Source of the DNA: Gammaproteobacteria bacterium | GTDB lineage: Bacteria; Pseudomonadota; Gammaproteobacteria; Steroidobacterales; GCA-2729495 | NCBI GenBank assembly: GCA_024229935.1 | Contig: JAAERX010000051.1 | Coordinates: 1 to 64,000, forward strand | DNA length: 64,000 nt | Reading direction: 5' to 3' | Shown: one piece after another, positions 47,142 to 61,928 of the stretch | How positions within the stretch are numbered: the first letter of the stretch is position 1 | Layout: every line of letters begins with the position of its first letter | Notes under the pieces: generated by a model | What the model saw: only the letters and a program-made list of their open reading frames with translations | Databases searched by the model: none | Told to the model about the DNA's origin: nothing | Made by a program: the position numbers and the translations under genes

Positions 47142-47252
47142 CGATATTTGGGGTCAGGCTCCGGAATTCTAAGGCTCATAAAGAGACTAAAGACTGGCGT
47201 TATGCAGATAAATTATTACAAAGCCAATCGTGGCTTAAACAGGCGATAAAAA

Positions 47253-47762
47253 TTGGTGTCAGATAGCAAAATTATTCATGGCAGTGCCTGGGTCTTTGGT
47301 GATGAGATTAATACCGATACCATGGCACCGGGTGCCTACTTCAAAGAGCCCATGGAGGTTATGGCGCAGCATTGTTTGGAAGCAGTAGATCCGGATTTTG
47401 CTGCTAACGTTAAAGCTGGTGACATTGTTATAGCGGGCAATAATTTTGGTGTGGGCTCGGCACGGGAACAGGCACCTATGGCGCTGGTCTATCTGGGTGT
47501 TGGTGCAATTCTTGCTGAATCTTTCAGCCGAATTTTTTATAGAAATGCAATTAACTTTGGTTTGCCATTATTAATATTTCCACAGGCCAAAGAAATAAAA
47601 GCAGGCCAATTGCTGGAAGTGAATGTGCTTGAAGGTGTTATTGCCAATGCAACTACAGCTAAGACCTATAAGGTTGAAGGTATTCCAGAGCACCTGATGC
47701 ATATGGTTGATGCGGGTGGTCTTATGCCATGGCTTAAAGAAAAATATGAACAATCAGAATGA
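47253..47762 (+). CDS. aconitase/isopropylmalate dehydratase-type hydro-lyase, small subunit
   Basis: A 169-residue swivelling domain of the LeuD type: GSAWVFGDEINTDTMAPGAYF, GDIVIAGNNFGVGSAREQAPMALVYLGVGAILAESFSRIFYRNAINFGLPLL. It completes the active site of the large subunit encoded just before it; the loop GVGSAREQ holds substrate-binding residues. The start is either TTG at 47253 or GTG at 47256; neither is clearly better. Confidence 0.87.
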   Translation: MVSDSKIIHGSAWVFGDEINTDTMAPGAYFKEPMEVMAQHCLEAVDPDFAANVKAGDIVIAGNNFGVGSAREQAPMALVYLGVGAILAESFSRIFYRNAINFGLPLLIFPQAKEIKAGQLLEVNVLEGVIANATTAKTYKVEGIPEHLMHMVDAGGLMPWLKEKYEQSE

Positions 47763-47828
47763 CAGGCCATACCTGTGATTACTATAGAAATGATTTAATG
47801 GAAATAATCCAATGAATGGGACCCGGTT

Positions 47829-48719
47829 ATGAGTCAGGCAGCAGATTTGCGTAAAAAACTTGCAGGTAGCGAAGCCATTATTGCACCTGGTGCCTATGAT
47901 GCATTGACCGCACTAATGGTTGAGCAGGCTGGTTTTCAATGCGCTTATGTCAGTGGTGCCAGCATCTCTTTTGCCCGTATTGGTCGGCCTGATCTTGGGC
48001 TTACCACGCTTACAGAAGTGGCGGATAGTGTGGCTAATATGCGTGAGCGTACTGAAATTTCACTTGTTGTGGATGCGGATACTGGTTTTGGTAATGCACT
48101 GAATGTTCAGCGCTCAGTTAGATTGCTTGAACGTATGGGTGCAACAGGTATCCAACTGGAAGACCAGACCTCACCAAAACGTTGTGGACATCTGGCGGGC
48201 AAGAGCATAGTCAGTGTTGATGAAATGGTGGGTAAACTAAAAGCAGCGCTGGATGCTCGCAATGACGATGACACTTTGATTGTGGCTCGTACGGATGCCA
48301 TTGCTATTGATGGAGTTGATGCTGCAATTGAACGTGCCCATGCTTACGCAGATGCAGGTGCTGATGTGTTGTTTATCGAGGCAATGCCCGATAAAGAAGT
48401 CATGACGCGTGTGGGTAAGGAAATAGGTGGCCGGGTACCGTTGCTGGCTAATATGGTGGAGGGTGGCAAGACGCCACTGACCCCGGCCAGTGAACTAGCT
48501 GAACTGGGGTTTAGACTGGTTATTTATCCTGGTGCGATGGTGCGCATCATTAGTTTTGCTGCTCAGGCTTATCTGCATGAATTGAAAGAAAAAGGTACGA
48601 CTGCCGGTCTGCTGGATAAGATGAATCAGTTTGATCAGATTATGGACCTGGTGGGTTTGCAGGAGTCTATTGCTGAAGGGAAGGCCTATGACCCTGAGAT
48701 CAAGGCTGCACGTGACTGA
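47829..48719 (+). CDS. isocitrate lyase/PEP mutase superfamily lyase
   Basis: A 296-residue TIM-barrel enzyme of the 2-methylisocitrate lyase/dimethylmalate lyase/oxaloacetate decarboxylase group. It shows SEAIIAPGAYDALTALMVEQAGFQCAYVSGASISF, the magnesium site LVVDADTGFGNALNVQRSVRLLERMGATGIQLEDQTSPKRCGHL and RTDAIAIDGVDAAIERAHAYADAGADVLFIEA. The KRCGH motif marks the lyases, as opposed to the EDKxxxKxNS of PEP mutase. It most likely cleaves the hydrated product of the neighbouring hydro-lyase into pyruvate, glyoxylate or propionate-type fragments (inference). It follows the small subunit by 66 bases. Confidence 0.87.
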   Translation: MSQAADLRKKLAGSEAIIAPGAYDALTALMVEQAGFQCAYVSGASISFARIGRPDLGLTTLTEVADSVANMRERTEISLVVDADTGFGNALNVQRSVRLLERMGATGIQLEDQTSPKRCGHLAGKSIVSVDEMVGKLKAALDARNDDDTLIVARTDAIAIDGVDAAIERAHAYADAGADVLFIEAMPDKEVMTRVGKEIGGRVPLLANMVEGGKTPLTPASELAELGFRLVIYPGAMVRIISFAAQAYLHELKEKGTTAGLLDKMNQFDQIMDLVGLQESIAEGKAYDPEIKAARD

Positions 48720-48893: not shown

Positions 48894-50531
48894 TTGAGCA
48901 AACAAGCCCCCCCCAAACGTACTACTCGCTTTAAGGAATTACTGAACAGTCCTGAGCTGGATTTTCTGTGTGAGGCCCATAATGGTATTACCGCACGCAT
49001 TGCTGAAGAGGCAGGTTTTAATGCAATCTGGGCAGGCGGCTTGTGCATGTCAGCCCAGTATGGCGTACGTGACAGTAATGAAGCCAGCTGGACCCAAGTT
49101 CTGGAGATGCTGGAATTTATGGCGGATGCGAGCAGTGTACCGATTCTGCTTGATGGTGATACCGGTTATGGCAACTTTAATAATGTTCGGCGTCTGGTAG
49201 CCAAGCTTGAACAGCGTAATATTGCAGCTGTATGTATAGAAGACAAACTGTTTCCAAAAACCAATAGCTTTATTGATGGTAATAAACAGGAACTTGCTGA
49301 TATTGATGAGTTCTGTAGCCGCATTAAGGCTGGTAAAGATGCACAGCAGGATGATGATTTCAGTATCATTACTCGTGTAGAAGCTTTTATTGCTGGCTGG
49401 GGTCTAAGTGAAGCGATGAAACGTGCTGAGGCCTATCATGAGGCAGGGTCAGATGGCATCCTGATTCATAGCGCCTTAAGTAATCCTTCCGAAGTATTGG
49501 CATTTAAAAAAGAATGGGCGGATCGCAGCCCTGTAGTAATCGTGCCGACCAAGTATTACGCCACGCCGACGGATATATTTCGTGAGGCGGGTTTCTCACT
49601 GGCTATCTGGGCAAATCATTTGTTACGTGCGGGTATCGTTGCCATGCGTGAATGCGCAGAAACTATGTACCGTGAACAGAGTCTGCTCTCAATGGAAGAT
49701 CGTATCGTGCCGGTTAAGGAAATTTTCCGTTTGCAGGGCGCTTCAGAATTACAGGATGCAGAAGAACGTTATCTGCCACAGCGGGGTGATGCGGACCGTG
49801 TTGTTGTGCTGGCAGCATCTCGTGGTACTGCACTTGGTGCATTAACAGAGGATCGGCCAAAGACTATGGTGGAGGTGCAGGGTCAGTCTTTACTTGGTCA
49901 GATCATTTCTACTTATAACGCGTCTGGCATCAAAAATATTATGGTTGTACGTGGTTATAAGAGTGAGGCTATCAATCTCCAAAGTATTAACTATGCAGAT
50001 AATAATGACTATGCTGATACGGGTGAATTGTTGTCACTGCAATGTGCGCTTGCGGCTGATGTAGATGATGAACATAACCTCTATATCAGTTTTGGTGACG
50101 TGTTGTTTAAGCGCTATATTATCGAGTCACTGGCTGAGCATGATGAGGATTTTGTCATTGCTGTTGATACCAATTGGCAGGATTCGGTGAATCGTGGCCG
50201 AGCGGCAGATTATGTGAGCTGCTCAGAACCCTATACCAGGCATGCTTTTAACAGCCGGGTGTTGCTTACTGGTGCAGGTGAAGAGCTCGATGAAACGAAT
50301 GTCCATGGTGAATGGACTGGTATTATGCGGGTGTCGGCAGCGGCTATGCCACGGTTGCGAGAGTTGGTTGCTAGTATGGCGTCAGACCCGGCTAATAAGA
50401 AGGCCAAGCTGCATCATTTGCTTGCTGCACTTACTGAAAATAATGAAAATGTACGAGTGGTTTATACGACAGGTCACTGGCTTGATGTAGACAGTATTGA
50501 TGACGTTGTAGCCGCAGGTAACTTTACATGA
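48894..50531 (+). CDS. phosphoenolpyruvate mutase fused to a nucleotidyltransferase
   Basis: First step of phosphonate synthesis: rearranges PEP to phosphonopyruvate. The 545-residue protein has a PEP mutase domain (about 10-285) with the diagnostic [11 protein letters not shown] at 116-126 and [13 protein letters not shown] at 86-97. A second domain (about 297-545) is a nucleotidyltransferase ([34 protein letters not shown]), expected to use CTP to activate the phosphonate product or a similar head group. Its N-terminal loop reads AASRGTALG rather than the usual AAGxGxRLx. The start is TTG at 48894 without a clear ribosome site. The next gene overlaps by four bases (ATGA). Confidence 0.92.
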
Positions 50532-51661
50532 TTGAAGCATGTGACTTTCTTAATGCTGCTAAGGCCAGAGGTTTTAGTTTTTACACTGGTGTTCCGTGTT
50601 CTTACCTGAAGCCGTTCATTAATTCAGTTATTGACTCAGATGAGCTGCGTTATGTAGGTGCAGCTAATGAAGGTGATGCAATTGCTATTGCCGCGGGCGC
50701 TGATCTGGCAGGCAAGCGCAGTGTTACGATGTTTCAGAACTCGGGGCTTGGTAATGCAGTCAACCCGTTGACATCATTGAGCTACAGTTTCCGTATCCCT
50801 ACGTTATTAATTTCCACGCTACGTGGTGAGCCTGATGGTCCGGCAGATGAACCGCAACATGAATTAATGGGTGCAATAACCACCGTTATGTTGGAGTTGA
50901 TGCAGATTCCTTGGGAGTATTTTCCTGTGGAAGATAGTGAGATAGAACCTGTGCTTAAGCGTGCCGTGTCTCATATGGAAGCGACTTCTTTACCCTATGC
51001 ACTGGTTATGCGTAAGGGTAGTGTTGCCCCGGTAAAACTGGGTTCTAAGCCAGTGGAACGTATGCCGGGAAACTTTCCAGGTACGGTAGCAAATGCGACA
51101 GCTTCTCGCCGTGAAGTGCTATTGGCTGTACAGGCTGCAGCACCAAACGATGCGGTTATTATTGCAACCACCGGTTATACCGGGCGTGAACTATATGCCT
51201 GTGCTGATCAGCCTAATCAGTTGTACATGGTGGGTTCAATGGGTTGTGCAGTGAGTTTTGGCTTGGGTTTAGCTCTGGCACAGCCAAATAGACCTGTGAT
51301 TGTATTGGATGGTGATGGTGCTGCATTAATGCGTCTCGGCGCGCAGAGTATTGTTGGTTATGAGGCGCCTGCTAATTTGACGCATGTCTTACTTGATAAC
51401 GCTATCCATGAGTCTACGGGTGGGCAGGCTACTGTTGCGCGGTCTGTTAATTTTCCTGCTATAGCAGCAGCAAGTGGTTATTCCAGTGTTGAGAGTGCAG
51501 CTGATCCCGAACGGGTTGGGCAACTTATAACGTGTCCTTGCCCAGGGCCGCGTTTTCTGCATGTGCCTATTTTACCAGGTGTGCCTGAGGATCTGCCTCG
51601 ACCAACAGTGACACCAGCCGAAGTGGCCATACGTATGCGAGAGTTTTTAATTAATGAGTGA
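50528..51661 (+). CDS. phosphonopyruvate decarboxylase
   Basis: Thiamine-diphosphate enzyme that pulls the unfavourable PEP mutase reaction forward by decarboxylating phosphonopyruvate to phosphonoacetaldehyde. The 377-residue protein has the pyrimidine-domain start [18 protein letters not shown]...[19 protein letters not shown]. The cofactor-binding motif is [41 protein letters not shown] (GDG...N). It overlaps the genes on both sides (4 and 8 bases), so the three enzymes are translated as a unit. Confidence 0.95.
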
Positions 51662-52748
51662 ACACAAACGCAGCATTCTGTTGAACCCCGGCCCGGTTAC
51701 TTTGACTGAAGGTGTGCGAAATGCATTACATCGAGGTGATTGGTGTCACCGTGAGCCGGAGTTTGCTGATCTTACTCGTGATATTAATGGCCGTTTAGTG
51801 CGTGTTTATAGGGAAATGGCCGGAGCTTTTGATGCAGTTATGCTGACCGGCTCAGGTACCAGTGCTGTTGAGGCCATGCTGGCTAGTTTTGCCCCACAGG
51901 ACTCGACTACGCTTGTTGTTATCAATGGTGTGTATGGTGAACGTATAGCCAAAATTCTCACCGTACATGGAAAGCCGCATACTGTTGTGGCATCAGCATG
52001 GGATGAACCTATGGATATAGATCGGGTTCGTTCTGAACTCGATATGCAGCCTGAAATAAGCCATGTTGTTGCGGTTCATCATGAGACAACTACAGGTCGT
52101 TTAAATGATATGTCTGAGCTTGGTGAACTATGTCGGAAGCAGGGTGTAAATTTGTTACTTGATGCGGTCAGTAGTTTCGGCGCTGAGGCAATCAACGTTG
52201 ATGAATGGAATGTTGCTGCTTTGGCGGCAACTGCCAATAAATGTTTACATGGTGTGCCGGGTATTGCATTTGTACTGGCACGCAAGGCCATGTGGAAAGA
52301 AGGTTTACAGCCTGCAGGCAGTGTTTATCTGGATCTGGCTGCTTATTATCAGGGGCAGCATGGCGAGGGGTTTTCGCCCTTTACCCAGTCAGTGCAGGCT
52401 GCATTTTCACTTCGTCAGGCACTCGAAGAGCTTGAGGATGAGGGTGGCTGGGAGCAGCGCCGTTCTAATTATCGCCGCCGTGCAGGACGCATAGCAGTAA
52501 CACTGAAGCAATTAGGGCTTGAGACCATGCTGTCACCCGAAGAATACTCCTGTGTGCTCTGGTCATGGTTGTTGCCCAAGGGTTTAAGTTACAGTGATGT
52601 GCATGCCGCACTTAAGGCCGAAGGTTTTGTGGTGTATGCAGGACAGGGTGATTTGAGTAAACATATTTTTCGTATTGCCCATATGGGTGATATTCATGAG
52701 GATGATCTGGATCGACTGGATAATGTATTGCGTAGCTGTTTTTCATGA
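51654..52748 (+). CDS. phnW: 2-aminoethylphosphonate-pyruvate transaminase
   Basis: PLP enzyme interconverting phosphonoacetaldehyde plus alanine and 2-aminoethylphosphonate (AEP) plus pyruvate. Here, beside PEP mutase and decarboxylase, it runs in the biosynthetic direction. The 364-residue protein begins ILLNPGPVTLTEGVRNALHRGDWCHREPEF, the PhnW signature. It has LTGSGTSAVEAML, LLDAVSSFGAEAI and the PLP lysine in ATANKCLHGVPG. It overlaps the decarboxylase gene by eight bases. Confidence 0.95.
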   Translation: MSEHKRSILLNPGPVTLTEGVRNALHRGDWCHREPEFADLTRDINGRLVRVYREMAGAFDAVMLTGSGTSAVEAMLASFAPQDSTTLVVINGVYGERIAKILTVHGKPHTVVASAWDEPMDIDRVRSELDMQPEISHVVAVHHETTTGRLNDMSELGELCRKQGVNLLLDAVSSFGAEAINVDEWNVAALAATANKCLHGVPGIAFVLARKAMWKEGLQPAGSVYLDLAAYYQGQHGEGFSPFTQSVQAAFSLRQALEELEDEGGWEQRRSNYRRRAGRIAVTLKQLGLETMLSPEEYSCVLWSWLLPKGLSYSDVHAALKAEGFVVYAGQGDLSKHIFRIAHMGDIHEDDLDRLDNVLRSCFS

Positions 52749-52785
52749 TGGATATAGCTATGGGTTCAGGTCGCGGTAGCAGATT

Positions 52786-53505
52786 ATGAAAACAGCAGTG
52801 ATTCTTGCAGCAGGTATGGGTACGCGGTTGCGTGAAGCACATGCAGATATGCCCAAGGGCTTTCTTGAGCTTGGCGGCAGACCCATTATTGAAACCTCAA
52901 TTATGCGTCTGGAACAGGCCGGTATTAGTAACATTGTGATCATTACTGGTTATGCTGCTGAGTATTACCACAAGCTGGCATTACGTTATGACGGGCTTGT
53001 GAGCATTACTCATAACCCCGAGTATGCTGATTCTGGAAGTATGTACTCATTATTTTGTGCCAGAGATATTATTGGCGAAGGTTTTCTGCTGCTTGAGTCT
53101 GACCTGATTTATGAGTCTCGCGCACTTGATGTTTTGATTAATATTGATGAGCCAGATGCGGTGTTATTGTCTGGCCCAACCAAAGCTGGTGATGAGGTGT
53201 ATATTGAGACTCATGATGGGCTGTTGGTAAATATGTCAAAGGATTGTTCTGTACTTGCTTCAGTTGCGGGTGAACTGGTAGGAATTTCTAAAATTTCTTG
53301 GGGCCTGTTTGCATTGATGAAACATATTTCTCGTGATGCGTTCAAATCATCACTGCACTATGACTATGAGACTGATTGTCTGGTAGCAGCGGCCCGAAGC
53401 TGGGATATAGTCTGCCCGGTTGTGCAGGATCTGGTGTGGGCTGAAATAGATGATCCAGACCACCTCGAGCGAGCCCGTACTGAGGTATGGCCACGTATTA
53501 GATAA
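52786..53505 (+). CDS. nucleotidyltransferase, probable CTP:phosphonate/phosphocholine-type cytidylyltransferase
   Basis: A 239-residue enzyme of the LicC/PntC type. It has an intact nucleotide loop (VILAAGMGTRLREAHADMPKGFLELGGRPIIETSI), the LicC-like segment HNPEYADSGSMYSLFCARD, and the metal-binding ESDLIYE and EIDD. Next to AEP synthesis genes the expected reaction is CTP + AEP to CMP-AEP. The upstream fused PEP mutase carries another such domain, so the locus encodes two. It begins 37 bases after phnW. Confidence 0.85.
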   Translation: MKTAVILAAGMGTRLREAHADMPKGFLELGGRPIIETSIMRLEQAGISNIVIITGYAAEYYHKLALRYDGLVSITHNPEYADSGSMYSLFCARDIIGEGFLLLESDLIYESRALDVLINIDEPDAVLLSGPTKAGDEVYIETHDGLLVNMSKDCSVLASVAGELVGISKISWGLFALMKHISRDAFKSSLHYDYETDCLVAAARSWDIVCPVVQDLVWAEIDDPDHLERARTEVWPRIR

Positions 53506-53717
53506 ACTTTGGTTTGTGGCTTATGGGCAGTAAATCGATTAAATATAGTAAGTAAGCTCTCTTTGTTCTTTCTTTATTGGCTTTGCATAACGTAGAGGCC
53601 CTTATTAATTTTGGTCATATAGCGCTTAAATAATTACTGTTAGAATGCTTCTTAATTATACGAATAGGGCATCAAGCACTGGTCAATACAAATAAATTCA
53701 CTAAAGGGGATTACGCA

Positions 53718-54446
53718 ATGCGAGCAAAAATTGCTGTCGTTTTATTTGGCTTTATTTTTTCCAGCTATGCTAATGCTGTGCTTGTTAATCCCCCAAGCTC
53801 ACCTATTGCCGGTGTTTCGACAACCGACGTTCGGATGATTGATGCACCTGCAGCAGACATCACTTTCAGTTTGTACGAAAACAATGACACTGCTTTTCTC
53901 TGGCAGGAGCGAACTCGCACAGTAAGTTCACAGGATGTTTCATTGTTGGTGTCTGAGTTAGCTGCAGGTGAAATCACTAAGACTGCTAAAGGCCCAAGTG
54001 GAGTTCTTGGTGCTGGGACATACGATAGTTACTTTTTACACATGGATCCGGATGTTCCGAATCTGGGAGGTCCTGCCGGGAAAATTTTTTCAGGTTCAAT
54101 AACCTTTTCTCAGGAAATAGCGGGGCTTATTTATAACCGGTTCGAAAATTGTGCCAGCCATGATGTTTTTGGCGCCCTGGTTACAACTTACCCTGGGGCG
54201 GGTTACCCTGGCCCAGATGTAACTTGTAATGAGATACAAAATTTTGACTTTGCACGGGTCAATGATAACTGGATCACCCTTTCTGCGGATCGTAAGACCC
54301 TTACATTTTCGCAGTATGCTGCGCATGATATGGATCAGATTAGAATCCTCACAAGTGTTGTACCTATTCCTGCGGCTGTCTGGTTGTTTGGTTCGGGTCT
54401 TAGCCTATTAGGCTGGTTCGGCCATCGCGGTGCTGCCAAGGCTTGA
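53718..54446 (+). CDS. exported protein with VPLPA-type exosortase sorting tail
   Basis: A 242-residue secreted protein: signal peptide MRAKIAVVLFGFIFSSYANA, a polar beta-rich body with NLGGPAGKIFSGSITFSQEIAG and a cysteine pair (ENCASHD, VTCNEIQ). The C-terminus VPIPAAVWLFGSGLSLLGWF carries the VPLPA-like motif, helix and a short basic end. It should be processed by an exosortase encoded elsewhere. The start has AAAGGGGA upstream. It lies between the phosphonate genes and the envelope-transferase genes and ends in a terminator, so it is probably its own unit. The tail is almost the same as in the protein at 13965. Confidence 0.85.
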   Translation: MRAKIAVVLFGFIFSSYANAVLVNPPSSPIAGVSTTDVRMIDAPAADITFSLYENNDTAFLWQERTRTVSSQDVSLLVSELAAGEITKTAKGPSGVLGAGTYDSYFLHMDPDVPNLGGPAGKIFSGSITFSQEIAGLIYNRFENCASHDVFGALVTTYPGAGYPGPDVTCNEIQNFDFARVNDNWITLSADRKTLTFSQYAAHDMDQIRILTSVVPIPAAVWLFGSGLSLLGWFGHRGAAKA

Positions 54447-54474
54447 TTGCAGAGCAATGCATGAATTCCTGTAA

Positions 54475-54500
54475 GCCCTGCTTTGAAGCGGGGGTTTTTT
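54475..54500 (+). terminator. terminator of the second VPLPA-CTERM gene
   Basis: CCCTGC, loop TTTGAA, GCGGGG (one T-G pair), followed by GTTTTTT. It lies 30 bases after the stop codon. Confidence 0.8.
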
Positions 54501-54586
54501 GTGGATGATGCTTTGGCCAGCCAGTGAATTTAGGTCGAAATTTTTGCCATTCTGGTCCTTTCGGGTGATTTACGTTGCTAACGAAC

Positions 54587-54628
54587 TATAATGGTGGAAC
54601 ACTTCGCACCACTGCTGGATTGGCAGTG
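54587..54628 (+). promoter_or_regulatory. possible promoter and leader hairpin of the envelope-transferase operon
   Basis: A TATAAT hexamer at 54587-54592 without a good -35 box, then a perfect hairpin CACTGC / GCAGTG (54610-54628) in what would be the leader RNA. The first start codon is at 54658. Confidence 0.3.
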
Positions 54629-54657
54629 ATAGTCCAGATAGAGAGACCCTTAGACCA

Positions 54658-54918
54658 ATGATGCTTAGAGTTAACAGACCGATTCTTATTCTTGCTGCAA
54701 TTTTTCTCGGTAGCTTTGCGCCATCGGCCTTTGCCTATCTGGACCCCAGCACCGGTAGCATGATCCTGTCTGCTATTGTTGGCATTATTGCTACTGTGGG
54801 GCTGGCACTAAAGACCTATTGGTACAAGTTCAAGTCCTTATTCAAAGGACAAAAATCTACTCAGGCTGAAGTATCTGCAGCAGATGCTGCTGCAGAGAAA
54901 GATTCTGGCAGTGAATAG
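54658..54918 (+). CDS. small membrane protein with YLDPSTGS motif
   Basis: An 86-residue protein: signal-like helix (PILILAAIFLGSFAPSAFA), then the compact motif YLDPSTGSMILSAIVGIIATVGLALKTYWYKFKSLF with a second helix, and a charged tail. Short proteins with YLDP(G/S)TGS are, from memory, encoded beside polysaccharide or envelope-modifying genes and have no defined function. It heads a run with the TagF-like, YejM-like and YidC-like genes (104-base gap to the first). Confidence 0.7.
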   Translation: MMLRVNRPILILAAIFLGSFAPSAFAYLDPSTGSMILSAIVGIIATVGLALKTYWYKFKSLFKGQKSTQAEVSAADAAAEKDSGSE

Positions 54919-55022
54919 TCTGATTCTTATTGCCACAGGGCTAAGATTAAGCACTCAGTTTTGTTATTGTTAACATATTGATGACTGGAACCGCTCTGGT
55001 TCCTTAGTGTGTTACGGGCCCT

Positions 55023-56207
55023 ATGTTCCAAACATTGCAAAACTGGCAAGCCTACCGTGCTTTTAAGGCGCTGCCGCTGCAGCACAAGCGCATTGTTTTT
55101 TACAGTGAGAGTGGTCAGGACTGGCATCATTTTGTGCCGGTGATAGATCAGCTCACCCGGGAATTGGCAGAGGATGTTATTTACCTGACATCCGATCCAG
55201 ATGATCCAGGCCTGCAACAGGATAATAAGCACCTGAGCAGTTTCTGTATTGGTAATGGTCTGATTCGCACCATGTGTTTTCAGTGGCTGGAGGCGGGTGT
55301 ATGCGCCATGACTATGGTGGATTTTAATAAGCTGCAGCTTAAGCGTTCGATTAATCCTGTGACCTATGCCTTTATGTTTCACTCATTAATAAGTGTGCAT
55401 ATGGCTGATCATGAAGATTCTTATGATTATTATGATGCGATTCTGTGTGCGGGTCCACATCAGATGCGTGAAGTTCGTAAGCGGGAAGAGTTGCTTGGGT
55501 TGGAAGCCAAACAATTATTTGACCATGGTTATCACCGCCTGGAGGAGCTTATGGCTAATCGCCGGACAGCACCGCCATGGAGTAATAAAGAAGACATTCA
55601 GATATTGCTGGCTCCGTCCTGGGGTGATGAGACGGTTCTTAATCTCTGTGGTATGGAGCTGGTTGATGTATTAATTGCAGCAGGTTTCCAGGTGACTTTG
55701 CGGCCACATTATCAGACACGCTGGACGACACCTGAGGTGATTGATCAGATAACTGATAAGTATGGAGACCACCCACAATTTAATCTTATGGAACAGATGG
55801 GCGAAACAGATTCTCTGTACGACTCACATATTATGATTACTGACTGGTCGGGCGCAGGCATGGATTACGGAATGGGGCTGGAAAAACCTGTACTTTATAT
55901 TGATGTGCCGGCTAAAGCTCGCAATGACTGGTGGCCAAAGCTTGGTATAGAGCCTTTTGAGTCTTATGTGCGTGATAAAATTGGCGCAATTGTATCTCCT
56001 GATCAGTTGGCAAGTGCCCCGGCAAAAATACTGGAATTACTGGCGGAGCCTGAGGTATTTAAGGTAAATGTTGCCAGTCTTCGTGATGAGTGGGTGTTTA
56101 ATTTAGGGCATAGCTCGGAAGCAGCTGCGAAGGCGCTTGTACAACTGGCACAAGAAAGTGATCAGCGACCAGCACAAGCAGAGGCTATTAAAGGAAATAA
56201 TGCTTAA
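55023..56207 (+). CDS. CDP-glycerol glycerophosphotransferase-like (TagF/TagB family) protein
   Basis: A 394-residue transferase of the family that builds teichoic acids in Gram-positives and capsule polymers in Gram-negatives by moving a phospho-alcohol from its CDP form. It has a GT-B-like fold with LLAPSWGDET, LRPHYQTRW (family RPHP region), and ITDWSGAGMDYGMGLEKPVLYID (family SD.SS...E region). No signal peptide; it is likely peripheral on the inner membrane. With CMP-AEP synthesis just upstream it is the best candidate in the window to use an activated phosphonate donor, but glycerol or ribitol phosphate is equally possible. The next gene overlaps by one base (TAATG). Confidence 0.8.
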   Translation: MFQTLQNWQAYRAFKALPLQHKRIVFYSESGQDWHHFVPVIDQLTRELAEDVIYLTSDPDDPGLQQDNKHLSSFCIGNGLIRTMCFQWLEAGVCAMTMVDFNKLQLKRSINPVTYAFMFHSLISVHMADHEDSYDYYDAILCAGPHQMREVRKREELLGLEAKQLFDHGYHRLEELMANRRTAPPWSNKEDIQILLAPSWGDETVLNLCGMELVDVLIAAGFQVTLRPHYQTRWTTPEVIDQITDKYGDHPQFNLMEQMGETDSLYDSHIMITDWSGAGMDYGMGLEKPVLYIDVPAKARNDWWPKLGIEPFESYVRDKIGAIVSPDQLASAPAKILELLAEPEVFKVNVASLRDEWVFNLGHSSEAAAKALVQLAQESDQRPAQAEAIKGNNA

Positions 56208-57997
56208 TGGCTGAAACAGAAGTATTGCCCATACCCACACGTGGCGCACTCTTACGCTGGATTGGCTGGTTTGGGCTTGCCAATGGTGTTCTGGCTGCCC
56301 TAATTGGGCTGCGTTACCTGCTGGCTTTTGGTATGCCGGAGTCGGGCGTTGCTACTCTTTATGTGTCGCTGGCTTTTATTGCTCAGTTTGCAGTAATAGG
56401 TTTTATTCCATTGATGTTGCTACTGGCGCCAGTGGCGCTGCTATTGCCACGTAAGAGTCTGGTTATTCTGCTTGGTGTGCTTCTTGCTGCAGTTGGGCTA
56501 AGCATTATTATTCTTGATGCAAATATATTTGCACAGTATCGCTATCACCTGAATGGTATGACGGTTGCCATTTTTGAAACATCTACCTGGGTATTTACAG
56601 GTGTGATTTTTGTAGTGCTGCTGGGTTTTCAGTTCATGCTGGCGGATATGACGTGGAAGCAGGTCAGTAAGAAGCGTAATTGTCATGGCAGCTTGTTAGC
56701 ACTCATCCTGACGCTTGTGTGGTTTGGTGGACAGGGTATTCATATTTGGGCTGATGCTACGGCTTATAGCCCGGTCACTAGCTTTACCCGCTATTTGCCG
56801 GCCTATTACCCAATGAAAGCTAAGCGCCGTCTTGCATCGCTTGGTTGGGTTGACCCGGATACAGTTGAGCAGCAACGCATGTTGCGCCAGGCTGATGCGC
56901 CTGAGAGTGGGCAGCTTGCTTACCCTCTAAACCCGCTGGTTTGTAATGCAGCCGATGCTTCGCTGTATAACATCGTTTTTATTCTTATTGATGCCCTACG
57001 TCCGGACAAAGTTACTGCTGAATTTACACCTAATATTTATGCCCTAGCTCAGCAGGGGCAAAACTTTAAGTATCATTATAGTGGTGGGAACTCATCACGT
57101 ATGGGTATCTTTTCCATGTTTTATGGTTTACCTAGTCCTTACTGGCAGGTCTTTTATGATACCCAGCGCCAGCCGCTGGTGATGGAGCAATTGCTGGTCA
57201 ATAATTATGAGGTGGCTGCATTCAGTGCGGTTGGTTTTGGCAGCCCATCACAAATTGATCGCACGTTATTTGCAAATATTGACCCTGCCAGTCGTTTTGT
57301 TCCAGAGGGAGGGGGTGATAAGAATCATGCAGCGACTGCTGCCTGGCGTGACTGGCTGGTATCACGTGCAGACAACACTAAACCCGCATTTAGCTTTTTA
57401 TATTATGACCCGGGCAAATCAGGTACTGTAAATGTAGATGCGGTGGATGAGCTTGATCAAAAGTATCAGTCTTATCTTACGGGTGTGGCAGAAATAGATA
57501 AGGATGTAGGCCTAATCCTTGCTGATTTGGATGTTGCCGGTCAGCTTGATAACACTTTGGTGATCGTTACCAGTGATCATGGTTATGAGTTTGATGAACT
57601 GGGCCTTGGTTATGTAGGCCATGCCAGTAATTATGGCCCTTATCAGCTGCGCTCCACATTGGTGATGCACTGGCCAGACCGAGCTGCACAGCAATTCTCC
57701 CATCGCAGTGCACACCAGGACTTACCTGCAACTTTATTACAGGAAATCTTTGCCTGTGAGAATTCAGCCAGTGATTACAGTAGTGGCTCAAATTTGTTTA
57801 AGGCCAAAAACTGGGACTGGATTATTGCGGGCAGTTATAACTCACATGCCATTGTTGAACCGGACAAACTAGTAGTAACCAACCCGGGTGGCTTTATTGA
57901 ATTACTTGGGCCAGATTACCGGCCTGACCCAGAACTGGAACTGGATGCTGGCGTAATGCAGGATGCTGTAATCGAGATGCGACGGTTCTATAAATGA
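56207..57997 (+). CDS. YejM/PbgA-like inner-membrane protein, alkaline-phosphatase superfamily
   Basis: A 596-residue protein with five N-terminal helices (about 15-180), a linker containing GIHIWADATAYSPVTSF, and a periplasmic sulfatase-fold domain (about 250-596). The layout and the WADA segment match E. coli YejM, which controls LpxC and so LPS synthesis. Unlike E. coli YejM, which has lost catalytic residues, this one keeps a plausible metal site: Asp262 (LIDALRPD), Ser296/297 at the nucleophile position (SGGNSSRMG), Asp457-His458 (TSDHGYE) and His472 (GHASNYG). It may therefore be an active phosphotransferase or phosphatase, as in lipoteichoic acid synthases or phosphoethanolamine transferases. 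It overlaps its neighbours by 1 and 4 bases. Confidence 0.8.
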   Translation: MAETEVLPIPTRGALLRWIGWFGLANGVLAALIGLRYLLAFGMPESGVATLYVSLAFIAQFAVIGFIPLMLLLAPVALLLPRKSLVILLGVLLAAVGLSIIILDANIFAQYRYHLNGMTVAIFETSTWVFTGVIFVVLLGFQFMLADMTWKQVSKKRNCHGSLLALILTLVWFGGQGIHIWADATAYSPVTSFTRYLPAYYPMKAKRRLASLGWVDPDTVEQQRMLRQADAPESGQLAYPLNPLVCNAADASLYNIVFILIDALRPDKVTAEFTPNIYALAQQGQNFKYHYSGGNSSRMGIFSMFYGLPSPYWQVFYDTQRQPLVMEQLLVNNYEVAAFSAVGFGSPSQIDRTLFANIDPASRFVPEGGGDKNHAATAAWRDWLVSRADNTKPAFSFLYYDPGKSGTVNVDAVDELDQKYQSYLTGVAEIDKDVGLILADLDVAGQLDNTLVIVTSDHGYEFDELGLGYVGHASNYGPYQLRSTLVMHWPDRAAQQFSHRSAHQDLPATLLQEIFACENSASDYSSGSNLFKAKNWDWIIAGSYNSHAIVEPDKLVVTNPGGFIELLGPDYRPDPELELDAGVMQDAVIEMRRFYK

Positions 57998-59451
57998 AGG
58001 TACGAATACAGATATTAGTGGTAGCGCTAGTGCTGCTTGTTACGACTATATCTACCGCCTGGGCAGACACATTCGTGGTAGTGGCCGGACACTCTGAGAT
58101 TGAATTTAATGAGGCCACTGGGTTGCCTGTGCAGTGGGTCGTTTGTCAGTCACTGTGTGTGGATGTTAAAGATGCACGCCGGGCAACTCTGTTTGCGCCA
58201 GGTGATGGGTACATACGTACATTAAAGCCTGTTTCTAAAGAACCTTACACGGTAACTGTAGAAGAAAATTCAGCTGCTGTGTCGGTCCAATTTCGGGCAG
58301 GTGGCCGGTTGCTTGGTTATCGTTTGCTAAAGGATTCAGCGCTGGTCGAGTTAAATTTACCACCGGGGGCGACATTTGAACTGGCTACGGGCGAGTCTTT
58401 TGTGCCTGAGCCTCTGCCAGGCTTTGGTGCTATTTACAGTAAGGTTAATGTTGCTCAGGTTGATGATTCCGGGCAGGCCCTCCATGAATATGATGAAGAG
58501 CAGTCTGTCCATAAGTTAACAGCTAGTTCAACTAATTGGACGGGCATACGCAGCCGCTACTGGACTTTACTGGTGCAGCCAGTTGGTAAGGCTGTATCAG
58601 TAAAGGTTGAGTATGCAGCAGAAAATCTACCTGAGTTGCAGCTTGCGACTGGCAGTGCTGAATCCTCCCATCAGGTAAAACTTTATGCCGGGCCTATTGA
58701 ATGGCAGAGCCTGAAGCAGGTCTCACCGGAACTGAGTGAAATGTTATTTGCCGCCTTGTGGGATTTTCTGCGAGTGCTGACATTTGGCATGTTGATATTA
58801 CTGGATTGGCTTTATGGATTGGTGGGTCACTACGGGCTGGCAATTGTCCTGCTATCTCTATCAGCAAAAATCCTGATGTCACCTTTAACGATGCTGGCAG
58901 ATCGCTGGCAGGCAGATGTAAATCGTATTCATACCCTGCTTAAGCCTGACCTTGATGAAATTAAGGAAAAATTTAAAGGTGAGGAAGCGCATAAACGAAC
59001 ACTGGCTGTATATAAGAAGCATGATATCAGTATGCTCTATACTTTTAAGAGTGCCGCAGGGTTTCTGATTCAGATTCCTGTGTTTATTGCTGCATTCGAT
59101 ATGCTTGCAGAAAATATAGCGCTTAATGAAATGAGTTTTCTATGGATAGCAAACCTTGCTAAACCGGATGGCTTTGCACATTTACCATTTATACTGCCAT
59201 TTTTTGGTGGCTTGCTGAACCTGCTGCCATTTTTGATGACTGGGTTGAGTGTGCTGGCTGCCTGGCTTCAGTCTGAGGATACGCTTTCACCCGATTTGCA
59301 ACGAAAACAAAGCCTGCGCCTTTATCTGATGGCTGCAGCATTCTTTATTCTATTTTATACTTTTCCTGCAGGGATGGTGCTGTACTGGACTTCTTCCAAC
59401 CTATTTCATTTACTGAAAGTTGAGTCAGGACGGTTATTTAAATGGCATTGA
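57994..59451 (+). CDS. YidC-like membrane insertase paralogue
   Basis: A 485-residue protein with YidC architecture: a signal-like first helix, a periplasmic beta domain (about 25-250; RLLGYRLLKDSALVELNLPPGA), then a five-helix core (about 265-485) with YGLAIVLLSLSAKILMSPLT, TFKSAAGFLIQIPVFIAAFDMLA and FTFPAGMVLYWTSSNLFHLL. The positively charged groove residue, arginine in E. coli, appears as lysine in SAKILMSP. The protein is shorter than housekeeping YidC (about 550) and lies in an envelope cluster rather than beside rpmH-rnpA, so it is a specialised copy. It may insert or fold one of the neighbouring membrane proteins. It overlaps the previous gene by four bases. Confidence 0.85.
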   Translation: MKVRIQILVVALVLLVTTISTAWADTFVVVAGHSEIEFNEATGLPVQWVVCQSLCVDVKDARRATLFAPGDGYIRTLKPVSKEPYTVTVEENSAAVSVQFRAGGRLLGYRLLKDSALVELNLPPGATFELATGESFVPEPLPGFGAIYSKVNVAQVDDSGQALHEYDEEQSVHKLTASSTNWTGIRSRYWTLLVQPVGKAVSVKVEYAAENLPELQLATGSAESSHQVKLYAGPIEWQSLKQVSPELSEMLFAALWDFLRVLTFGMLILLDWLYGLVGHYGLAIVLLSLSAKILMSPLTMLADRWQADVNRIHTLLKPDLDEIKEKFKGEEAHKRTLAVYKKHDISMLYTFKSAAGFLIQIPVFIAAFDMLAENIALNEMSFLWIANLAKPDGFAHLPFILPFFGGLLNLLPFLMTGLSVLAAWLQSEDTLSPDLQRKQSLRLYLMAAAFFILFYTFPAGMVLYWTSSNLFHLLKVESGRLFKWH

Positions 59452-59480
59452 TTTTGCTTCATTCAAGCATGAGGTTTTGT

Positions 59481-61928
59481 ATGAATTGTAGGGCTTTTCG
59501 AAACCGTTCCTACAGCAGTTTTTTGCGTTGTTTGGTTAGTTATGCTGTTACGCTGCTAGCAGCTTTAATTCTGACTGCCTGTGTGGGCGGTGCTCCTGAA
59601 GCGCCGGATCTGAACCCGGATATAGACTGGGATGTGATCGCCAGGCTGTCAGAAAAGCACACGCAGGTTTCCTGGACTGAAGATGTGCAGCCAATTATTG
59701 AGAACCGCTGTATCGTTTGTCATGGTTGCTATGATGCTCCCTGCCAGCTGAAGCTGTCGTCTTATGAAGGTCTGATGCGTGGCGCCAGTCCCGTTAAAGT
59801 TTATGATGGGGTACGTATCAAGGCTGTTGAGCCAACCCGTCTGGGTATTGATGCAAGTACTCCGGCGGAGTGGCGGACAAAGGGTTTTCACCCGGTTTTG
59901 GATGAAACTAAGAAGGATGCAGAGGACGACCCCGTTCAGCGTTTACGCGATTCAGTTTTTTACAGAATGTTAAGGCTCAAGCAACTTAACCCGCAGCCCC
60001 GAGCCGGGCTTTTGCCAGATAGTGTGACGCTTGGGCTGAATCGTAAACAGGTCTGTACAACCGAGGAAGGTTTTGCCAAATTTGAGCGTAAGAAACCGCT
60101 ATGGGGGATGCCATATGCACTGCCGAATTTGAGTGAATCTGCATATAAGACAATTGTTACATGGCTGGCAGAAGGCGCACCGGGGCCCGATCCATTTGTG
60201 TCTTCAGCAGCGGTTAAACCACAGATAAAGGCCTGGGAAAATTTTCTGAATGGGAGTTCCAAACGCGAACAACTTGTCAGCCGTTACCTGTATGAACACC
60301 TCTTCCTTGGGCACTTATATTTTCAGAATGGGCCGAATAGAGAGTTTTACCGACTGGTGCGTTCGTTTACTCCACCAGGGGAAGCGATACATGAGATACC
60401 TACTACCCGGCCTTTTGATGACCCTGGTGTGCAGGAGTTCTGGTACCGAGTTAGGCCTCTGCATGAATCCATCGTGGCTAAATCGCATATCCCTTATGAG
60501 TTATCAGACCAGCGCATGGCTAGATACAGGGAGTTATTCTTAGAGCCTGATTACACAGTTGATGAGTTGCCAGGGTATGAGTTTCCGGCAACAACAAACC
60601 CCTTTATCACATATGCTGCCATGCCCCCCAAGTCGCGTTATCAGTTTATGCTGGATGATGCACGGTTTTTCATTCAGGGCTTTGTCAAGGGCCCGGTGTG
60701 TCGAGGTCAGGTTGCCCTTAATGTTATTGAAGATCAGTTCTGGGTGTTTTTCAGTGCCCCTAAATCGCTTGATGGACCTGATGAAAAGGCAAGGCTGGCG
60801 GGTGCTGCCAATTATCTACAGATGCCGAGTTCGACTGATACCCTGAATTTGCTGTCCGCCTATGGCAAATACTGGAAGTCGCAAAAAGAATACCTTGCAG
60901 CACGGGATACTTATTTTATTGGTCAGCTAGAAAAAGAAGGTGCGGATGCATTTGCTGGTATCTGGAATGGTGGTGGCACTAACCCAAATGCAGCGCTGAC
61001 GGTCTTCCGTAATTTTGATAGTGCTGCGGTCGAATTTGGTTTATTGGGTAACTATCCTGAGACCGCCTGGATTATTGATTTTCCCTTATTTGAGCGGATT
61101 CATTATCTGCTGGTTGTCGGCTTTGATGTGTTTGGTAATGTTGGGCATCAGTTAAATTCGCGCCTGTTTATGGATTTTCTTCGCATGGAGGGTGAAGATA
61201 ATTTTCTGACTTATTTACCAGTTGCTGATCGTCAGAAGATTCGTAACCAGTGGTACCAGGGTATTCGTGAAAGACGCAGTAAGTATTTTCAAGAGCCGAT
61301 GGAATGGAATGCGATTGAGTCTCCCATTACCTTTAAAACAGATGACCCCCAGAAAGAACTTTATGATCAAACAATAGTGCACCTTGGTGATGCTGCAGGT
61401 GGAGTGGATTATCTGAATCGTTGTGATACAGATGACTGTGTTTCGGATGGTGCAACGCCAATGATTCGGACAGCGGATGCCAAGATACGCAGGCTGCATG
61501 AATCTGAGCCCAGGTCAATAGTAAACAGCCCGGACCTTACGTATTTACGTGTGCTGCTTGAAGGTGAGGAGGACATTCACTACAGCCTGATGGTGAATAA
61601 GAGCTATAAGAATCTGAGCAGCTTATTAGCTAGTGAAGATTCGCTTCGGCGTGATCAGGAAAATGATACCTTGACAGTGGTGCGGGGGTTCTCAGGTTCG
61701 TATCCAAATGTTTTCCTTGTGGTGCCATTCGATAGGCTTGAAGAATTTGTTGCGGATACAATGGCGCCGAAAAACCTGGATGAATACCAGCTGTATGTTG
61801 CCAAGTATGCAATTCGACGTACCAATAGCAGTTTTTGGGAGTATTCAGATTGGTTTCAGAAACGGTATTTTAAGAGCAAGCCTGTGGAAGCGGGTGTGCT
61901 GGACCTGAGTCGCTATAGCCCATACTAA
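59481..61928 (+). CDS. cti: fatty acid cis/trans isomerase (Cti-like), probable lipoprotein
   Basis: Converts cis-unsaturated fatty acids of membrane phospholipids to trans in place, stiffening the membrane under solvent or heat stress (known from Pseudomonas). From the ATG at 59481 (GAGG five bases upstream) the 815-residue protein has an N-terminal helix ending in a lipobox-like LTACVGG. A c-type haem motif CIVCH follows at about 77-81 in SWTEDVQPIIENRCIVCHGC, then YEGLMRGASPVKVYDGVRI as in Cti. An earlier ATG at 59442, inside the YidC gene end, is also in frame. It closes the envelope cluster. Confidence 0.88.
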   Translation: MNCRAFRNRSYSSFLRCLVSYAVTLLAALILTACVGGAPEAPDLNPDIDWDVIARLSEKHTQVSWTEDVQPIIENRCIVCHGCYDAPCQLKLSSYEGLMRGASPVKVYDGVRIKAVEPTRLGIDASTPAEWRTKGFHPVLDETKKDAEDDPVQRLRDSVFYRMLRLKQLNPQPRAGLLPDSVTLGLNRKQVCTTEEGFAKFERKKPLWGMPYALPNLSESAYKTIVTWLAEGAPGPDPFVSSAAVKPQIKAWENFLNGSSKREQLVSRYLYEHLFLGHLYFQNGPNREFYRLVRSFTPPGEAIHEIPTTRPFDDPGVQEFWYRVRPLHESIVAKSHIPYELSDQRMARYRELFLEPDYTVDELPGYEFPATTNPFITYAAMPPKSRYQFMLDDARFFIQGFVKGPVCRGQVALNVIEDQFWVFFSAPKSLDGPDEKARLAGAANYLQMPSSTDTLNLLSAYGKYWKSQKEYLAARDTYFIGQLEKEGADAFAGIWNGGGTNPNAALTVFRNFDSAAVEFGLLGNYPETAWIIDFPLFERIHYLLVVGFDVFGNVGHQLNSRLFMDFLRMEGEDNFLTYLPVADRQKIRNQWYQGIRERRSKYFQEPMEWNAIESPITFKTDDPQKELYDQTIVHLGDAAGGVDYLNRCDTDDCVSDGATPMIRTADAKIRRLHESEPRSIVNSPDLTYLRVLLEGEEDIHYSLMVNKSYKNLSSLLASEDSLRRDQENDTLTVVRGFSGSYPNVFLVVPFDRLEEFVADTMAPKNLDEYQLYVAKYAIRRTNSSFWEYSDWFQKRYFKSKPVEAGVLDLSRYSPY

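Follow-up and report, generated by a model that had tools for sequence, protein, structure and literature searches.

The window analysed here, a stretch of 64,000 nucleotides from a gammaproteobacterium of the Steroidobacterales (contig JAAERX010000051.1, positions 1 to 64,000), carries a gene cluster that is best explained, with a probability of about 0.62, as a phosphonyl-tailoring system of the cell envelope. The cluster has two halves. The first encodes a phosphoenolpyruvate (PEP) mutase fused to a nucleotidyltransferase (NTase) domain (PepM), a phosphonopyruvate decarboxylase (Ppd), a 2-aminoethylphosphonate (AEP) aminotransferase (AEPT) and a separate PntC-type cytidylyltransferase. The second, the transfer half, encodes a small membrane protein with a YLDPSTGS motif (YLDP), a TagF-like transferase, a YejM-like membrane protein and a YidC-like paralogue. 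The two halves almost certainly form one system. The transfer half is most likely an inner-membrane module for phosphorus head groups activated with cytidine monophosphate (CMP), which is loaded with AEP in the window. An earlier note on this DNA had named the open reading frames, all of which are present where it placed them.

Joint inheritance of the two halves

Forty genomes of the window's family were compared. The TagF-like gene was present in 31 of them and PepM above its cut-off in 27, or in 30 when the contig-end fragments seen on the synteny map in G005, G016 and G025 were added. Both genes were found in 29 genomes and neither in eight, with two genomes holding only the TagF-like gene and one only PepM (Fisher p = 5e-6, kinship uncorrected). 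The two genomes with the TagF-like gene alone are incomplete assemblies (G017, 72%; G033, 78%), and on a broken contig of G033 YLDP and a fragment of the TagF-like gene still stand next to Ppd, AEPT and the NTase. In 24 of the 29 genomes PepM and the TagF-like gene sit together on a single contig in the same orientation; in the other five they lie on separate contigs of fragmented assemblies. Consistently, a DUF3413 protein was found in 27/31 genomes with the TagF-like gene and in 0/9 without it. The lower-scoring YidC copy followed the same distribution (28/31, counting fragments in G005 and G026, versus 0/9); it was ambiguous in G017, missing in G032 and G033, and the sole YidC copy found in G012 and G023. 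On the synteny map the unit reads PepM-Ppd-AEPT-NTase-YLDP-TagF-YejM-YidC, with inserts in some genomes and no YejM-like gene in G031 and G035. Chance adjacency was ruled out by these co-occurrence and linkage counts across many genomes.

The association was also observed beyond the family. When named genome contigs were scanned with a TagF-like profile, 59 loci were found, 27 from the 40 family genomes and 32 from elsewhere; six of the 32 (L095, L102-L106) belong to the window's clade in the TagF tree and 26 are clearly more distant. The taxa include Lysobacterales, Xanthomonadales, Fibrobacter, Chitinispirillaceae, Rokubacteria, Desulfobacterales and Acidobacteria. Phosphonate genes accompany the TagF-like gene at 40 of the 59 loci, at 20 of the 32 outside the 40 genomes and at 14 of the 26 outside the window's clade. 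YLDP was found in 50 of the 52 loci having at least 1 kb upstream, and among the 38 loci having at least 4.5 kb downstream the YidC-like gene was found in 35 and the YejM-like gene in 31. Gene order is not fixed, as L107 has the core first and then PepM-Ppd-NTase-AEPT. As a negative control, the LeuC-LeuD-lyase gene trio directly upstream of PepM was followed at loci whose sequence reaches 3 kb or more upstream of PepM. It was present in 6/7 family loci and in 0/13 among the other 32, indicating that ordinary inherited neighbours are lost where the transfer half is kept.

In a sample of 369 gammaproteobacterial genomes, the TagF-like gene was found in 12 and PepM above cut-off in 27, or in 29 with fragments in G136 and G351. 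PepM was present in 6/12 genomes with the TagF-like gene (one of them a fragment) and in 23/357 others (p = 9e-5, kinship uncorrected). The family is rare: in two phylum samples of 398 and 199 genomes, the TagF-like gene was found at E<=1e-30 in two genomes and one genome, respectively, the query genome included, and these samples gave no new gene context.

The earlier note had drawn the functional link between the halves from adjacency and had proposed conservation side by side as its test. The link now has strong support from co-occurrence, from linkage and from recurrence in distant lineages, partly in other gene orders. The opposite pattern, in which the second half always occurs without phosphonate genes or the reverse, was not seen.

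Gene identities and proposed mechanism

All genes of the cluster lie on the plus strand. PepM (48894-50531), which would convert PEP to phosphonopyruvate and carries a C-terminal MobA-like NTP-transferase domain, scores 375 bits against TIGR02320 (cut-off 320). Its EDKxxxxxNS motif is intact, with E116-D117-K118 and N124-S125 invariant in 14 sequences. Ppd (50528-51661) scores 411 bits against TIGR03297 (cut-off 313), and AEPT (51654-52748) 375 bits against TIGR03301 (cut-off 361). The family profile of the cytidylyltransferase (52786-53505) finds the Treponema denticola AEP cytidylyltransferase PntC (6pd1) with E=2e-69. The four identities proposed earlier for this half are thus borne out, three above curated cut-offs and the fourth by the PntC match. 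In the excerpted text of PMC6697681, Glu104 and Glu196 of PntC are placed to contact the AEP amine, and the choline-using LicC has Asp there. The window enzyme has Glu104 and Glu195 at the aligned positions, and both are invariant in 12 sequences. In contrast, the NTase domain fused to PepM has LAASRG..L instead of LAAG.G.RL and lacks both AEP-contact glutamates, and it is therefore probably not the AEP-activating enzyme. Clusters carrying both a fused and a separate NTase have already been recorded (PMC6697681, section 6, in the same excerpts). As members of well-defined families, PepM, Ppd and AEPT are predicted to make AEP, and the PntC-type enzyme is expected, with support at the residue level, to convert it to CMP-AEP.

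In the transfer half, the TagF-like and YejM-like genes overlap by 1 base and the YejM-like and YidC-like genes by 4, and the YidC-like gene overlaps the gene after it by 10. The YLDP gene ends 104 bases ahead of the TagF-like gene. The genes had been described as overlapping end to end, which holds from the TagF-like to the YidC-like gene and not for YLDP. The YLDP protein (54658-54918) has 86 residues, and its YLDPSTGS motif, almost invariant in nine sequences, separates two hydrophobic stretches (9-27 and 33-51). In three other genomes (L156, L157 and L159) the TagF-like protein itself carries a fused Y(L/I)DPG(S/T)GS hairpin at its N-terminus. These fusions point to a functional link between the two proteins, and YLDP probably anchors the TagF-like enzyme in the membrane or acts as its partner. 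At two family loci the YLDP and TagF-like genes are separated by a gene for an FkbM-type methyltransferase (L068 11759-12532 in G027; L070 1524-2276 in G030).

The TagF-like protein (55023-56207) was compared with known enzymes by profile and by predicted fold. When the PDB was searched with a profile of 23 diverse members, the only matches at E<=1 were TagF, TarL and Cps3D (2.1e-4 to 4.5e-4). The profile of a narrower alignment found none of these three in the PDB and gave chance matches alone. Weak matches to PF04464 (Glyphos_transf) were obtained for 9 of 21 family members at E<=1, the best at 7.7e-4. An AlphaFold2 model was built from 21 sequences, with a mean predicted local distance difference test score (pLDDT) of 86.6. 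The top Foldseek match of this model in the PDB is TagF 3l7k with cytidine diphosphate (CDP)-glycerol (E=1.9e-11), and Cps capsule enzymes, including one with CMP, come next; VIA-align superposes the model on TagF with Z 18.8 over 321 aligned residues (root-mean-square deviation 4.9 A). Residues invariant in 23 sequences include His120, Arg227, His229 and Ser276, which by analogy may be catalytic; PDB titles of TagF name H444N and H548A variants. The kinship with TagF is seen by broad profile and predicted fold, and in place of the previous label, CDP-alcohol phosphotransferase homologue, the protein is better named a distant relative of the CDP-glycerol glycerophosphotransferases (TagF, glycosyltransferase B (GT-B) fold).

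LicD was considered as the transferase and ruled out, as 39/40 family genomes have no match to it and G016 has fragments only. LicD is mentioned within the clusters of the PntC paper (PMC6697681, excerpts). With LicD missing, the TagF-like enzyme is left as the best candidate. Its fold, motifs and gene context make it a likely CMP-AEP:acceptor phosphonoethylamine transferase.

The YejM-like protein (56207-57997) scores 188 bits against PF11893 (DUF3413; cut-off 27) and 81 bits against PF00884 (Sulfatase, of the alkaline-phosphatase/sulfatase type; cut-off 25). It matches YejM across almost its full length (E=2e-94) and reaches 289 bits versus a cut-off of 825 for NF038282 YejM, and it is therefore named YejM-like, not YejM. 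Asp262, Ser296/297, Asp457, His458 and His472 are invariant in 14 sequences. The metal and nucleophile residues are thus complete, in agreement with the plausible metal site proposed before. Asp457-His458 are replaced by Gly-Arg in E. coli and Salmonella YejM. The enzyme status of YejM itself is disputed, and a Mg-dependent phosphatase activity has been reported against earlier opinion (PMC7576196, excerpts). In the predicted model, 190/596 residues have pLDDT <50 and the membrane part is of low confidence, so only the match of the periplasmic domain was used; the best match of this domain is YejM. That the YejM-like protein is a second transferase is a tentative assignment, held at slightly less than even odds.

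The YidC/Oxa1-family paralogue (57994-59451, 485 aa) scores 99 bits against PF02096 (60KD_IMP; cut-off 35) and 110 bits against TIGR03592 (cut-off 84). A separate high-scoring copy (>170 bits) is present in 35/40 family genomes, and the earlier description of the cluster protein as a paralogue stands. The groove arginine of E. coli YidC (Arg366) corresponds in the alignment to Lys292, which does not vary among 13 sequences. Whether the paralogue is a dedicated insertase is an even call.

These identities suggest the following scheme. PepM, Ppd and AEPT would produce AEP, and the PntC-type enzyme would activate it as CMP-AEP. The YLDP hairpin protein would keep the TagF-like enzyme on the inner face of the inner membrane, where the enzyme would then move phosphonoethylamine from CMP-AEP onto a hydroxyl of a membrane-bound acceptor, freeing CMP. 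The acceptor may be a membrane lipid or a lipid-linked glycan; the unit has no acceptor-building genes. Once the group is lipid-linked, the YejM-like protein might hand it on to an acceptor in the periplasm, much as LtaS does and as EptA does with phosphoethanolamine, or might trim it. The least certain step concerns the YidC paralogue, which could be devoted to inserting or assembling the small hairpin protein or the YejM-like protein. The transfer half would be a swappable module, which other bacteria would load with other CMP-activated phosphorus groups.

The cluster resembles several known systems in part. With the Pnt pathways described in the excerpts of PMC6697681 it shares the fusion of PepM to an NTP-transferase, the separate PntC nearby, the AEP genes, CMP-AEP and the AEP-contact glutamates. 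The Pnt neighbourhoods there contain LicD-like phosphotransferases or glycosyltransferases, in place of which the window has the TagF-like/YLDP/YejM-like/YidC-like set; a term search of that paper returned none of TagF, YidC and YejM. PepM and a linked cytidylyltransferase are present, as in phosphonyl tailoring, and the TagF-like gene is the putative surface-transfer gene. Like TagF/TarL and Cps3D, the TagF-like enzyme has a GT-B fold of the CDP-alcohol-donor family, the C-terminal motif APTWG...(D)WSG and conserved His residues. Unlike them, it is a single domain of about 390 aa below the Pfam cut-off and has a YLDP partner, and genes for glycerol or ribitol phosphate are missing from its unit. 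The YejM-like protein shares the DUF3413 membrane domain and the alkaline-phosphatase-superfamily periplasmic domain with YejM/PbgA/LapC, and differs from E. coli YejM in its Asp-His metal pair and in its co-inheritance with the phosphonate cluster. The YidC paralogue has the 60KD_IMP domain and the P-x-G-x-V-L-Y-W core of the insertase, but it is shorter than canonical YidC and has the invariant Lys for the groove Arg. The proposed logic is also that of EptA and LtaS, Ser/Thr metalloenzymes that move a lipid-borne phospho-head group to a periplasmic acceptor (compared in PMC7576196), except that the putative donor here carries a phosphonate head group. No description of the TagF-like/YLDP/YejM-like/YidC-like gene set was found in the open-access PMC papers searched. 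Phosphonyl-tailoring logic through CMP-AEP is already known; the transfer half is the part that may be new, and it would approach a new kind of system if the interchange of head groups by one such module is confirmed.

Possible other head groups and neighbouring genes

The genes beside the transfer half differ among lineages. In four Fibrobacterota loci, the gene directly 3' of the YidC-like gene encodes a protein of 593-609 residues with an NTase domain and a class I/II aminotransferase domain. The best NCBIfam match of all four is the CobD threonine-phosphate decarboxylase (E 8e-42 to 5e-46, below cut-off). This CobD-like fusion beside the transfer half suggests an ethanolamine- or aminopropanol-phosphate head group; no PepM above cut-off was found in these genomes. 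Three loci with a diverged TagF-like gene (L132, L154 and L158) each encode an NTase, a protein like gamma-glutamyl-CDP-amidate hydrolase (123, 95 and 128 bits, respectively; cut-off 250) and a large protein that exceeds the cut-off of PRK05849, a family of unknown function; the PRK05849 proteins of L132 and L154 have PEP-utiliser/dikinase domains. This gene set resembles the methyl-phosphoramidate capsule pathway of Campylobacter, a likeness limited to these three loci and not shared by the window. PepM-profile matches in L132, L136, L152, L154 and L158 were rejected as mutases, as they cover the NTase part only (profile positions 295-542).

At L155, where the TagF-like gene is also diverged, PepM carries a PF01467 cytidylyltransferase domain and stands with Ppd and an iron alcohol dehydrogenase, a gene set as expected for a hydroxyethylphosphonate pathway. 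At L157, PepM is again of the type with a PF01467 domain, and an AEPT-like domain is joined to a second PF01467 domain. The Rokubacteria loci have a divergent NTase, to which L125 adds a protein related to the phosphonate hydroxylase PhnY (172 bits, cut-off 500). No head-group pathway was identified at L117, L135, L136, L152 and L160. Every identifiable head-group pathway beside the TagF-like gene carries some cytidylyltransferase domain.

A tree was built from 59 of 66 TagF-like sequences; members of a nine-locus list of short contigs and near-copies were excluded if present, as were L130 and L158 for split or partial matches, and the family loci were labelled AEP as a group, including L085, whose PepM lies on another contig. 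The six context groups need 8 changes on this tree (minimum 5); for the AEP context by itself, well-supported branches force 4. The placement of the phosphoramidate-type rows is unsure because of the long branches of L132, L135, L136, L154 and L156. These results indicate that the head-group supply changed while the TagF-like gene stayed. The earlier idea that the second half handles a phosphonate head group thus holds for its linkage to phosphonate genes and not for specificity, as the Fibrobacterota and some others have the transfer half without local phosphonate genes and with no PepM above cut-off found in their genomes. Taken together, YLDP and the TagF-like, YejM-like and YidC-like proteins could be a modular envelope-tailoring machine, a reading to which we give somewhat less than an even chance. 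Its transfer and membrane module would be kept and its head-group module exchanged among C-P groups (AEP and probably hydroxyethylphosphonate), O-P groups (ethanolamine- or aminopropanol-phosphate type) and perhaps N-P groups (phosphoramidate type, with the diverged TagF-like gene).

Several further arrangements were noticed at these loci. Several Lysobacterales-type loci have a PEMT/LmtA-like membrane methyltransferase gene between Ppd and AEPT and a PhnY-like dioxygenase gene 3' of the YidC-like gene (L111 8016-8615 and 12589-13368), and the dioxygenase also occurs at the Rokubacteria locus L125 (8692-9591); these genes suggest methylated or hydroxylated head groups. The separate NTases of L109 (2064-2825) and L111 (4305-5132) have Asp at the position of PntC Glu104, as the choline-using LicC does, which may reflect a bulkier, methylated amine. 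L135 (8263-14629), from a 1.4-Mb genome of an uncultured gammaproteobacterium without a PepM match, has two convergent TagF-like genes, YLDP and a sulfatase-domain protein beside ATP sulfurylase. In three genomes of one gammaproteobacterial genus, the TagF-like, YidC-like, NTase and YLDP genes stand together without a local PepM. At L152 (4653-12051) the same set is flanked by sulfatase-domain and asparagine-synthase-like proteins.

In the window, a gene for a protein with a PEP-CTERM sorting tail (53718-54446, plus strand) lies between the halves, with a terminator-like stem and T run 3' of it (54476-54493, plus strand). Both had been taken as a separation of the two halves. The gene is indeed there; the stem is weak evidence alone, as the window has 12 such matches versus 10.5 expected in shuffles. 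The PEP-CTERM protein has no Pfam match, and its only NCBIfam match, to a PEP-CTERM protein, is below cut-off (17 versus 80 bits); an exosortase is encoded in the window's genome (G000:C72). No tblastn match to the gene was found at E<=1e-4 across 39 related loci, which ruled it out as a member of the system, and it is apparently an insert of the window genome outside the conserved unit. In G039 a different protein with a PEP-CTERM-like tail, recognised by eye, is encoded in the gap between the halves in the opposite orientation (L079 13482-14462, minus strand). The gap may be a landing spot.

On the downstream side, the YidC paralogue is followed by a fatty acid cis/trans isomerase (CTI) gene (59442-61928, plus strand), which among the mapped relatives stands beside the cluster only in G004 besides the window and is probably accessory. 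The upstream trio (45879-48719) consists of a LeuC/LeuD-type hydratase pair and a lyase of the methylisocitrate/PEP-mutase family, and resembles dimethylmaleate hydratase and dimethylmalate lyase. The trio is kept in family genomes both with and without the phosphonate cluster. It was rejected as a member of the system, being present without the cluster in G006, G007, G009 and G028 and absent from 13/13 other loci that reach 3 kb or more upstream of PepM. An apparent empty site occurs in G006, where a PAS-GGDEF-EAL gene comes after the lyase (L172 9361-13187). In G013, PepM-Ppd-AEPT-NTase and an EamA transporter gene lie between the lyase and a PAS-GGDEF-EAL-type gene (L055 7891-18504).

Weighing of the readings and meaning

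Several observations weigh against the phosphonyl-tailoring reading. G013 has PepM to NTase without the second half. In the gammaproteobacterial sample, half of the TagF-like genomes (6/12) have no PepM and 23 of the 29 PepM genomes have no TagF-like gene, the latter implying that the TagF-like enzyme is one solution among several. Twelve of the 32 outside loci have a TagF-like gene without local phosphonate genes, some of them on short contigs, and PepM above cut-off was not found in the whole genomes of these 12; the genome of L130 has a split match below cut-off (189 and 67 bits). The TagF-PepM distances correlate with r=0.95, which shared descent alone can give. No acceptor-making gene was found in the cluster. 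The TagF-like protein of the window scores 14.3 bits against PF04464, below the cut-off of 22.1, and in VIA-align UDP-GlcNAc 2-epimerases stand slightly above TagF (Z 20.3 versus 18.8); as the GT-B fold is common to many non-transferases, such as these epimerases, the fold alone leaves the function unfixed. In addition, the YejM-like gene is absent between the TagF-like and YidC-like genes in 7/59 named loci (L087, L108, L111, L112, L115, L118 and L119). A DUF3413 protein is encoded elsewhere in the genome of L108 (G031), and none was found in the genome of L087 (G035). The module can therefore do without the YejM-like protein, as would be expected if this protein carried out an optional second step.

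The cluster might instead be two independent systems that are neighbours by common descent alone, one making and activating AEP for another use and the other (TagF-like, YejM-like and YidC-like) maintaining the envelope. The upstream trio shows that inherited adjacency occurs here, and both the lone first half of G013 and the Fibrobacterota transfer half without PepM would suit this explanation. In contrast, the halves are jointly present or absent in 37/40 family genomes, and their linkage recurs in Lysobacterales-type loci, reversed in L107 and with a different cytidylyltransferase fold in L155 and L157, where the inherited neighbours are not kept (0/13 loci). Independence is thus very unlikely. 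It is also hardly credible that the product is a secreted, antibiotic-like small-molecule phosphonate, with the membrane genes serving export or self-protection. Cytidylyl activation is used by some phosphonate natural products (PMC6697681, excerpts), and G013 has the EamA-type transporter gene 3' of the first half; however, the conserved genes of the unit include no exporter, the downstream genes encode membrane-surface enzymes, and PntC with its AEP-contact residues points to AEP itself.

Two other explanations concern single enzymes of the transfer half. The nearest solved relatives of the TagF-like enzyme, TagF, TarL and Cps3D, are polymerases, and cytidylyl activation would also suit the synthesis of a teichoic- or capsule-like poly(phosphonate/phosphate) chain instead of the addition of a single head group. 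Such a role is improbable, as the conserved unit of the synteny map includes no other conserved window gene than those listed above and has no glycosyltransferase, polyol-phosphate or exporter gene, and AEP, from general chemical knowledge, has no free hydroxyl for chain growth. The YejM-like protein could be a sensor of lipopolysaccharide or lipid, or a hydrolase that removes or recycles head groups, and the end product would then be the AEP-lipid made by the TagF-like enzyme. Its nearest homologue, YejM/PbgA, is a regulator of disputed enzymatic role (PMC7576196, excerpts), and the gaps at seven loci would suit this as well. The Asp-His pair, invariant in 14 sequences where E. coli YejM has Gly-Arg, suggests catalysis over sensing, and the sensor or hydrolase role is rather unlikely.

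The phosphonyl-tailoring reading of the window bears on a known gap. According to the excerpts of PMC6697681, most bacterial phosphonate capacity is devoted to cell-surface tailoring, and the steps past C-P bond formation are called enigmatic, with cytidylyl activation alone settled. For a family in which LicD was not found in 39/40 genomes, the cluster offers a candidate transferase together with a membrane partner that almost always accompanies it, a candidate for a second enzyme and a YidC paralogue inherited along with them. The general rule that it suggests is that of a single transfer module serving several head-group chemistries.

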